Origin: Parerythrobacter lacustris
Lineage (GTDB): Bacteria > Pseudomonadota > Alphaproteobacteria > Sphingomonadales > Sphingomonadaceae
Assembly: GCF_024626475.1 (NCBI RefSeq)
Contig: NZ_JANKHH010000007.1
Span: 310,001 to 374,000, forward strand
Length of the DNA: 64,000 bases
Direction of reading: 5' to 3'
The position numbers and the translations under genes are program-made. Below are positions 20,998-22,812 of the stretch, one piece after another; within the stretch, counting starts at the first letter, position 1, and each line of letters starts with the position of its first letter. The notes beneath the pieces are model-generated. The model was not told the DNA's origin, made no database searches, and saw only the letters and a program-made list of their open reading frames with translations.

Positions 20998-21017
20998 TGG
21001 CAATCCACTTGCGCCCG

Positions 21018-21099
21018 TGCTTCGACAGGCTCAGCACGAACGGATGAAGGATGTGGCTAACACCGCGAGAACCCCGATCGGCCTGAGCCTGTCGAAGGC
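21018..21099. repeat. palindromic repeat, family C, overlapping the transpeptidase 5' end
   Basis: CTTCGACAGGCTCAGCACGAAC and CCTGAGCCTGTCGAAGG are inverted around about 40 bases. The right arm is translated as LSLSK in the transpeptidase signal region if the 21044 start is used. Confidence 0.85.
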
Positions 21100-21580
21100 C
21101 ATGCTTGGAACTATCGTCTTGCTGGCCGCCTGCGCCCCGGTCGAACGCGCGCCGCTGACCGGTCAGGCCGATTTCGTGCGGGTCGACAAGTCCGACCGGA
21201 CGCTTACGCTCTTTCGCGATGGTCGCGTGCTTCGCGAATACACCGGGTTCGCGCTGGGCGACGCGCCGGAAGGGCACAAGCAATTCGAGGGTGACGAGCG
21301 CACGCCGGAGGGGCGCTACACCATCGACACGCGCAACCCGGCGAGTGCCTACCATCTGAGCCTGCGCGTCTCCTATCCGAACGACACCGACCGCGCTTTC
21401 GCCGAGACACAAGGCCGTTCGCCCGGCGGCGACATCTTCATCCATGGCCAACCCAACGCTTCGCCGATCGAGCGATTGCCGGGCGACTGGACAGATGGCT
21501 GCATCGCAGTGTCCGACGCCGAAATGGACGAACTTTGGGGTGCCATCGCCGACGGCACCCCAATCGAGATTGTGCCCTAG
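21044..21580 (+). CDS. L,D-transpeptidase (YkuD family), probable lipoprotein
   Basis: This 178-residue periplasmic protein would cross-link peptidoglycan stems or attach proteins to them. The YkuD domain includes DKSDRTLTLFRDGRVLREY, the HGQPN motif and catalytic Cys in TDGCIAVSDAEMDEL. LLAAC forms a lipobox, so the protein is probably lipidated. Start choice is uncertain: 21044 gives a basic n-region partly encoded by a repeat, while ATG 21101 gives a very short signal with no charge. Its TAG is the left half of the CTAG into which a MITE has inserted. Confidence 0.85.
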   Translation: MKDVANTARTPIGLSLSKAMLGTIVLLAACAPVERAPLTGQADFVRVDKSDRTLTLFRDGRVLREYTGFALGDAPEGHKQFEGDERTPEGRYTIDTRNPASAYHLSLRVSYPNDTDRAFAETQGRSPGGDIFIHGQPNASPIERLPGDWTDGCIAVSDAEMDELWGAIADGTPIEIVP

Positions 21581-21848
21581 GGTCAGGACCTATTAGTCGC
21601 ACAGGCGTGGCGTCAAAATGACGATGATATCGGGCGGAACTGCCCGCCGGGAAGGCTGGTTGCCTTTCCAAGGGCAGTTGTGATCGAGATCGAAGTCATT
21701 TTGACGTCCCGAAGGGACTTGACCAATTGGCCCCGTTGCAGCGTCGCAGAAGCTTGAAAATGCGCCGCATTTCCTGCGCTCCCGCTCCTCGCTACAGGGC
21801 CAATTGCTTCAAACCACGCTCTGCGCGACTAATAGGTCCTGACCCTAG
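21577..21848. mobile_element. 272-bp MITE-like element with 24-bp perfect inverted ends and CTAG duplication
   Basis: Bases 21577-21600 and 21825-21848 are exact inverse complements over 24 bp; the outermost four bases at each end are CTAG. Removing the element and one CTAG restores a single CTAG that ends both flanking convergent genes. The inferred structure is therefore a 20-bp terminal repeat (GGTCAGGACCTATTAGTCGC) plus a CTAG target duplication. A second internal inverted pair (CGTCAAAATGAC at 21611-21622, GTCATTTTGACG at 21695-21706) is present. There is no transposase. End sequence and CTAG target resemble the IS5 group, which would supply transposase in trans (inference). Confidence 0.85.
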
Positions 21849-22240
21849 CCCTTCTCACCGTCACCCTGCTGCTGGAGCATCGCGACCTGCACCTGCAGCC
21901 GCTTCACCTCGCGCAGGATGGTGAGCATGTTCATCCGTTCGAACATCCACTGCTTGATGAAACCGAGCATGGTCAGCACCATCAGCAGCACGATTGCCCA
22001 GATTGTATGCTCTTCGGCGTTGCCGCCGTGCATGGTCTGGATCACCTGCCACCCCACGGCGAGCATGATGATGCCGAAGGCGACGGCGATGGCGAAGGCG
22101 AACTTCGCCCAACCGCCCATCGGGCCTTGCCAGCTGTCGCCGATCTGGCGGAACAGGCCGCGGTCTTCTTCCAGGCTGGCGAGGAACGCCTTGTCGTCCT
22201 CGTCCAGTGCGCCGCGGATGCGGTCGTCGATATCGGTCAT
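21845..22240 (-). CDS. DUF6768 membrane protein, partner of the adjacent ECF sigma factor
   Basis: This 131-residue protein has a charged cytosolic N-terminus (MTDIDDRIRGALDEDDKAFL). Two transmembrane helices follow (about residues 46-68 and 80-97), and then a C-terminal amphipathic segment RMNMLTILREVKRLQVQVAML likely to be coiled coil. The start overlaps the sigma factor stop as ATGA, so the two are made together. DUF6768 proteins beside ECF sigma genes are recurrent; a role in sigma control is inference. It lacks the zinc motif of classical anti-sigma factors. Its stop is the right-hand copy of the duplicated CTAG. Confidence 0.78.
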   Translation of the reverse strand: MTDIDDRIRGALDEDDKAFLASLEEDRGLFRQIGDSWQGPMGGWAKFAFAIAVAFGIIMLAVGWQVIQTMHGGNAEEHTIWAIVLLMVLTMLGFIKQWMFERMNMLTILREVKRLQVQVAMLQQQGDGEKG

Positions 22241-22812
22241 TGGGTGTCTCCTGTGGTGTCGTCGCCGAGCGCTTGCTTGAGCTGGCGGCGGGCGTGGAAA
22301 AGGCGCGATTTGGCGGTGCCCAAGGGTACGGCCTGCACCTCGGCGATTTCGGCAAGGGTCAGCCCCTCGACGAAGTGGAGATGGGCAGCGAGCCGGTGAT
22401 CGGGCGAGAGCGAAGCGAACGCCTGGCGGATCGCCAGTGCGTCGACCGGGGTGGATGCCGCTTCGATAGTGTCTACCTCGACCTCGCTCGACCGGCTTCG
22501 CGCAGCCGCCGTCTGGCGCAGGTCATCGACGCATTTGCGCCGCACTATGCCGAACGCCCACGGTGCGAAGCGCGCAGGTTCCCGCAACGTCGGCAAGCCG
22601 CGCCAGATCGCCAACCAGCTTTCCTGCGCCGCTTGCCGTGCCGCATCCCCGTCTCCCGTGAGCCGCCGCGCGGTGCGCAGCAGACGCGGATGCCAGCGAG
22701 CGGCCAGCCGATCGCCCGCCGCCCGGTCTCCGCCGAGCACGAGCGTAACGAGCAGTTCGTCGAACGCTGCCTCGGTCGAGAGGGTGGGATAGGGTGGTTT
22801 CGCTGCCATCAC
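22237..22812 (-). CDS. ECF-type RNA polymerase sigma factor
   Basis: This 191-residue protein has sigma region 2 (ARQAAQESWLAIWRGLPTL..FAPWAFGIVRRKCVDDLR) and region 4 (FASLSPDHRLAAHLHFVEGLTLAEIAEVQAVPLGTAKSRLFHARRQL), and lacks regions 1 and 3, as ECF factors do. It is co-translated with a DUF6768 membrane protein. ATG codons at 22812 and 22809 are both usable. The signal it answers to is unknown. Confidence 0.9.
   Translation of the reverse strand: MMAAKPPYPTLSTEAAFDELLVTLVLGGDRAAGDRLAARWHPRLLRTARRLTGDGDAARQAAQESWLAIWRGLPTLREPARFAPWAFGIVRRKCVDDLRQTAAARSRSSEVEVDTIEAASTPVDALAIRQAFASLSPDHRLAAHLHFVEGLTLAEIAEVQAVPLGTAKSRLFHARRQLKQALGDDTTGDTQ

Follow-up and report, generated by a model that had tools for sequence, protein, structure and literature searches.

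The 272-bp feature at 21577-21848 of the window, the 64,000-nucleotide stretch of the Parerythrobacter lacustris genome analyzed here, is a MITE, transposase-less and non-autonomous, inserted exactly at a stop shared by two convergent genes. Among its relatives, insertions at the ends of genes are in genuine excess by a factor of about two, and those at shared ends by a factor of about three. The likeliest identity is an IS427-type MITE with copies lasting best at gene ends: to the reading that this is an IS5-family, IS427-type MITE, moved in trans, whose excess at stops is mostly due to survival, we give a probability of roughly 0.6. The presence and exact placement of the feature were verified in the sequence, and the locus is organized as follows:

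21017-21580, plus strand: L,D-transpeptidase (YkuD) gene, 187 aa, YkuD match at E 3e-21, TAG stop at 21578-21580
21577-21600, plus strand: left terminal inverted repeat, 24 bp perfect, CTAG counted in
21578-21579: left TA target duplication, which with the first G of the element forms the L,D-transpeptidase TAG stop (21578-21580)
21580-21845: element proper, 266 bp if the duplication is TA, with boundaries from the junctions of 27, then 135 copies
21825-21848, minus strand: right terminal inverted repeat, 24 bp perfect
21846-21847: right TA target duplication, which with the last C of the element forms the minus-strand DUF6768 TAG stop (21847-21845)
21845-22240, minus strand: DUF6768 gene, 131 aa, DUF6768 match at E 7e-26, TAG stop at 21847-21845

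The element ends with CTAGGGTCAGGACCTATTAGTCGC on one side and its exact reverse complement on the other, perfect over 24 bp and matching at 96% over 28 nt. The element proper starts with GGGTCAGGACC and finishes with GGTCCTGACCC. When the terminal 20-mer was searched with up to 3 mismatches, only these two ends matched within the window (shuffle mean 0.01). No ORF of at least 60 aa lay wholly inside the 266-bp element, and two such ORFs crossed an edge. A sequence-only reading had described a 272-bp element with 24-bp perfect inverted ends and outer CTAG and had called it a MITE; the sequence matches this description, and the classification agrees with the short length, the lack of a transposase gene, the inverted repeats, the target duplication and the existence of other copies.

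For the window copy by itself, a duplication of CTAG and one of TA look the same, and it was the other copies which revealed TA. The targets of 135 insertions were CTAG (70), TTAG (21), CTAA (19), TTAA (15) and others (10). With few exceptions, TA was preceded by C or T and followed by A or G, in all combinations, whereas the ends of the element were constantly G and C. Insertion is therefore at the TA of a YTAR tetramer, TA alone is duplicated, and the G of both TAG stops comes from the element. A 4-bp CTAG duplication was ruled out, as junctions such as C-TA..TA-A and T-TA..TA-G exclude a 4-bp copy and neither CTAA nor TTAG was copied on both sides. The earlier idea of a CTAG-targeting element, for which flanks lacking CTAG had been named as the refutation, fails in its strict form because 65 of the 135 insertions lie at other tetramers. 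The related idea that the target duplication gives each gene its own stop survived in part: each gene does have its TAG, but the duplicated sequence is TA and not CTAG. YTAR is also the set of tetramers able to end two convergent genes at once.

The stops of both flanking genes sit in the CTAG found at the two edges of the element. With G as the first base of the element and C as the last, a gene coming from either side still finds a TAG after an insertion at its stop, and its protein keeps every amino acid. Both proteins are intact here, which supports the earlier claim of an insertion without coding cost. In the other two frames, reading into the element ends at a stop after 5 or 14 codons on the left side and after 5 or 18 on the right. 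That excision would restore one tetramer shared by both stops was corroborated by empty sites at the same convergent gene pair in related genomes. DUF6768 relatives were present in 12 of 57 genomes, and the three best besides P. lacustris were inspected: two had an element-free shared tetramer, CTAG in one and TTAG in a congeneric species, and the third a longer convergent overlap. Among 80 titled public loci with an L,D-transpeptidase, which include at least 2 of the genomes already inspected for DUF6768 relatives, a recognisable convergent DUF6768 gene occurred in 18; a 4-bp YTAR stop overlap without the element was found in 11 of these 18, with CTAG in 4. None of the 80 loci had the exact 13-base tip, in its GG or its GC form, within the 120 bases past the transpeptidase stop. 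On the other side of the locus (21845-22812), the DUF6768 gene directly follows a sigma-70-family (ECF-like) gene with a 4-bp overlap, and DUF6768 may be a partner of this adjoining gene.

Other genomic copies, which the sequence-only reading had proposed to look for, do exist. The P. lacustris genome (3.06 Mb, 12 contigs) contains four, with identities of 100, 96, 95 and 97%, the last over 143 bp alone because this copy is internally deleted to about 160 bp; the search listed 13 matches, among them inverted ends matching each other. Three of the four copies lie on convergent shared stops:

Shared-stop copy of the window: YkuD gene facing the DUF6768 gene
Shared-stop copy: amidohydrolase gene (Pfam match reaching residue 609 of 610), opposite a DUF418 gene
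Shared-stop copy: aldo/keto reductase gene (match reaching residue 307 of 308), opposite an ORF of 435 codons that has no Pfam match
Remaining copy: at the end of an ORF of 99 codons that has no Pfam match

The automatic gene caller was unstable at these sites: copies 2 and 4 of our numbering were called as shared with short flanks and as single with longer ones, and were settled by ORF reading and Pfam, with a Pfam match in 3 of their 4 ORFs. For this reason, we relied mainly on a test of ORF length which is independent of gene calls. Base rates were taken from 464 kb of the genome (400 kb and the window), where a simple gene caller placed the 575 YTAR sites in intergenic regions (252), within genes (249), at one stop (68) or at shared stops (6). 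The same sample held 80 convergent gene pairs, 6 of them with a four-base overlap; all 6 overlaps were CTAG, and TTAA, CTAA and TTAG were not found among them. A single element on a shared stop would be unremarkable, as 6 of the 123 non-coding CTAG sites in the sample are shared stops. However, the chance of at least three shared stops in four copies lies between 2.5e-5 and 4.5e-4 according to the base rate used, and the excess over pooled copies replicates in a hold-out set (below); a coincidental placement is thus highly improbable.

Elements with paired tips were detected in 20 of 397 genomes of the family and 18 of 396 genomes of the order, two sets which overlap, while a reversed control pattern matched in neither. 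Phage records gave no match to the element, and plasmid records matched in 4 of 72,556 cases; where the annotation was usable, 1 of 3 plasmid copies was at an annotated stop and 2 of 3 elsewhere. One genome carried 17 similar copies, 5 of them ending ORFs of 150 codons or more; the coordinate of one of these 17 agrees with a plasmid record of Sphingopyxis alaskensis RB2256.

In the discovery set, drawn from the family and order searches plus earlier searches, 33 of 60 insertions ended an ORF of 150 codons or more; the other YTAR sites of these loci did so in 61 of 416 cases. The statistic was then fixed before the hold-out, for which new copies were collected from two genera, one with matches in 21 of 195 genomes and the other in 26 of 80; both were partly represented in the discovery set, which already included some of the matches. 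There, 34 of 75 insertions ended such an ORF against 52 of 251 controls (p 5e-5), and 8 of 75 did so on both sides against 6 of 251 (p 0.005). With stratification by locus, 62 of 124 insertions ended an ORF of 150 codons or more, where 31.5 were expected, and 14 of 124 were both-sided at 130 codons or more (4.6 expected); 0 of 10,000 draws reached either count. The hold-out alone gave 31 of 67, with 15.7 expected. Based on gene calls with coding sites excluded, the counts were 56 of 119 against 73 of 397, and the hold-out alone was weaker (25 of 65 against 33 of 144, p 0.03). The estimate of the excess moved from an odds ratio of 7 at first to one of 3 in the hold-out.

These counts are to be read with their samples. 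The stratified tests cover 124 of 135 sites, as 11 had no control tetramer. Loci without paired ends were dropped from the boundary set (17 of 44) and the IS set (7 of 47), and 1 of 61 was dropped from the intergenic-orientation set. The hold-out used 77 of 81 new copies, of which 2 were dropped at contig edges, and a small number of listed copies are missing from the discovery set, such as 3 of the 8 from a single genome. The hold-out copies lay at unrelated sites, with no alignment spanning the insertion site among them. Single gene ends were hit far more often than shared stops. Of the earlier suggestion that convergent stop overlaps serve as safe sites, the excess above chance stands, while survival as its cause is the likeliest explanation but is unproven.

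An autonomous IS5-group relative, also suggested by the sequence-only reading, was recognized in a co-resident IS. The 18-bp tip TAGGGTCAGGACCTATTA occurs at four contig ends of P. lacustris as well, where it leads into what, read by eye, appears to be the start of a transposase gene; a fifth contig end shows a right end of the same kind with an apparent transposase C-terminus, also read by eye. Tips at contig ends suggest an IS in several copies at which the assembly broke. In the P. lacustris genome, where some small contigs read as N and the full IS is unreadable, a transposase search at E 1e-30 gave no match. Sequences 75-85% identical to the end of the co-resident IS were found in other genomes, and six copies of these relatives from five genomes measured 844-869 bp. 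Two overlapping ORFs were present in all three that were read. Parts of one relative match PF13340 and PF01609, as well as the IS5 family model NF033580, its N-terminal part alone being under the NF033580 cut-off. Judging from the transposase of these relatives, the partner IS would be of the IS427 type within the IS5 family. In the portion of the published description matched here, IS427-group elements of Paracoccus are 832-865 bp long with 2-bp repeats in nearly all, and two overlapping ORFs are noted in some of them (PMC3281130). The TA duplication of the element agrees with the 2-bp (to 4-bp) direct repeats expected of this group. Elements of the IS630 type also duplicate TA and prefer CTAG; an IS630-type origin was dropped as elements with these tips carry IS5-type transposases.

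We propose that the MITE would be moved in trans by a transposase, probably from the co-resident IS, into the TA of a YTAR tetramer, with duplication of TA only. An insertion at a stop would provide TAG to a gene from either side and leave the proteins whole. Copies within genes and at many intergenic places would be lost, and those at gene ends would persist. The other explanation of the excess is that the transposase moving the MITE favours gene ends, for example through a feature near stops or terminators; this target choice is a credible possibility, which we do not prefer. To compare the two, 40 autonomous ISs with similar tips were considered, half of them from one genome of lower GC and most with TAGGCTC rather than TAGGGTC. 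These ISs ended an ORF of at least 150 codons in 3 of 40 cases against 28 of 864 controls (p 0.15) and one of at least 100 codons in 5 of 40 against 36 of 864 (p 0.03), and were both-sided at 150 codons in 2 of 40 against 0 of 864 (p 0.002). The two latter results speak for target choice, whereas the excess is not significant at 150 codons, with gene calls (p 0.34) or at CTAG sites alone (1 of 27 against 3 of 89). The ISs (3 of 40) are no clean negative control: an excess, if slight, exists among them too, and with base rates considered they do not differ significantly from the MITEs, which shifts some weight from survival to target choice. The raw contrast between MITEs and ISs (p 6e-7) is inflated by the greater number of chance ORFs in the GC-rich MITE loci. 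Against their own controls, the odds ratios were 4.8 for MITEs and 2.4 for ISs (p 0.30), and 3.9 and 1.6 with gene calls (p 0.13). Across tests they did not differ significantly (p 0.13 to 0.56), a point on the side of target choice, and so the ISs do not decide between filtering and target choice.

Two observations lean to filtering. A smaller share of the MITEs than of the ISs lay within called genes (16 of 135 and 13 of 40, respectively, p 0.004), and the 13 intragenic ISs also speak against a transposase choosing gene ends. Moreover, copies without a near-identical sister were more often at stops than the others (46 of 82 against 20 of 51, p 0.075). The latter, recent near-identical copies are nevertheless still at ORF ends in 39% of cases, which counts against survival and for target choice. 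Intergenic copies away from stops lay in divergent (9), co-directional (7) and convergent (7) regions; the absence of a shift away from divergent regions counts against a simple account by promoter avoidance.

The interior of the element has its own claim to attention. An alignment of 35 distinct copies from ten genera (284 columns) gave a consensus fold of 95 pairs, derived from this same alignment, in which a closing stem made of the tips is combined with two long hairpins. In the window copy, with positions converted by hand from alignment columns, these parts are:

21579-21610: 5' side of the closing stem, pairing with 21814-21846 (columns 2-34 with 250-283)
21611-21706: hairpin A (columns 35-130), with a conserved GAA/GAA internal loop
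21718-21813: hairpin B (columns 142-249)

Pairing was kept in 97.2% of cells, and double changes occurred in 58 of the 95 pairs, against at most 25 in a slid control with partners shifted by one to three columns. The window copy folds with an MFE of -160.9 kcal/mol (z -13.2). The three opposing positions of the GAA/GAA internal loop were kept in 30, 34 and 32 of the 35 copies, and opposing mismatches were conserved within covarying helices at columns 47-49/116-118, 53/112 and 70/95. By eye, a short ORF was also made out in hairpin A; covariation of the helices could account for its conservation. This interior recurs with at least three different end sequences, among them a variant tip in a relative. 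At 1473-1740 of a Sphingopyxis indica plasmid, it stands at CTAG between quite different inverted tips (GGTCGTAAACTCATAAA...), and the CTAG of the element edge holds position 1475, where an annotated L,D-transpeptidase-family gene ends. Such an interior between different tips indicates that the interior, and not the tips alone, is conserved and exchanged. On the same plasmid, an annotated IS5-family transposase gene with tips of its own starts at the right CTAG of this copy, and the tip TAGGGTCAGGACC comes next.

This fold leads to a further, tentative reading, which we consider rather doubtful: the element could be a putative portable, bidirectional 3'-end module whose fold acts in the RNA of the gene or genes it terminates, by 3'-end protection or by structure-helped termination, so that copies at stops would be kept as useful. 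Its use would be greatest between convergent genes having no intergenic space for a terminator. The strength of the fold, its covarying pairs, the conserved GAA/GAA loop, the interior shared by several end sequences and the excess at stops are all consistent with it. Other results are less favourable, as a consensus scan for a stem followed by a U run (intrinsic terminator) found 0 in 21400-22050, and no Rfam family reached its gathering score over the element, a mir-2 match being below threshold (19.9 against 45.5 bits). A scan of the element region likewise found no promoters. No clear bias was seen in orientation relative to the gene (12 B-end, 5 A-end), copies away from stops make up about half, and the fold could as well serve transposition or stem from copying between arms. 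The latter process, quasi-palindrome correction, is an established mutational mechanism and would produce compensatory changes without selection on the fold; it is nonetheless an unlikely source here, because several opposing mismatches are kept and not corrected within covarying helices, which argues against mere arm-to-arm copying. A wider and speculative form of the 3'-end idea, on which we would not insist, is that Sphingomonadales harbour a structured module of roughly 225 bp with exchangeable IS5-type ends, preferentially kept as the immediate 3' end of genes. This would be a mobile bidirectional 3'-UTR element, serving two convergent genes when on shared stops, with its target YTAR being the convergent-stop tetramer.

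The element can be compared with several known systems. With the IS427 group of the IS5 family it shares the TA repeat and near-identical tips, the IS relatives having the length, the two overlapping ORFs and the PF13340 and PF01609 domains described above; unlike them, the MITE has no transposase gene, and ISs are more often inside genes. Other bacterial MITEs (e.g., MITEAba12, RUP, BOX, Correia and Nezha) are also short, non-autonomous and of near-fixed length, with inverted ends that match a resident IS. The present element differs by its excess at stop codons and shared stops, and by an extensive covarying fold maintained across ten genera with exchanged tips. No report of an excess in stop-codon placement or of such a fold appeared among the matches listed from the open-licence literature. 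REP/BIME repeats are palindromic and structured, and lie near 3' ends and between convergent genes. The element resembles them in palindromic structure and in its 3'-end and convergent sites, but is larger (266 bp) and has IS5-type tips and a target duplication. Tn7 inserts at attTn7, a harmless site at the 3' end of a gene, using a dedicated targeting protein and one site; the element shares the harmless gene end, with a 4-bp target and many sites. Thus, this is an ordinary kind of element with an unusual, replicated placement and an unusually well kept fold.

These data link the target motif of a common IS type with the tetramers at which convergent genes overlap at their stops, two matters mostly considered separately, and predict at which places of compact genomes such elements pile up. 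Deep covariation combined with an exchange of tips also offers a testable case of a mobile-element interior selected for its structure, possibly as a ready-made 3' end. A second MITE group has the same tips and a different interior, in 13 copies. At one further locus, two inverted tips stand back to back with a single common CTAG, as if a second element had targeted the edge of the first.
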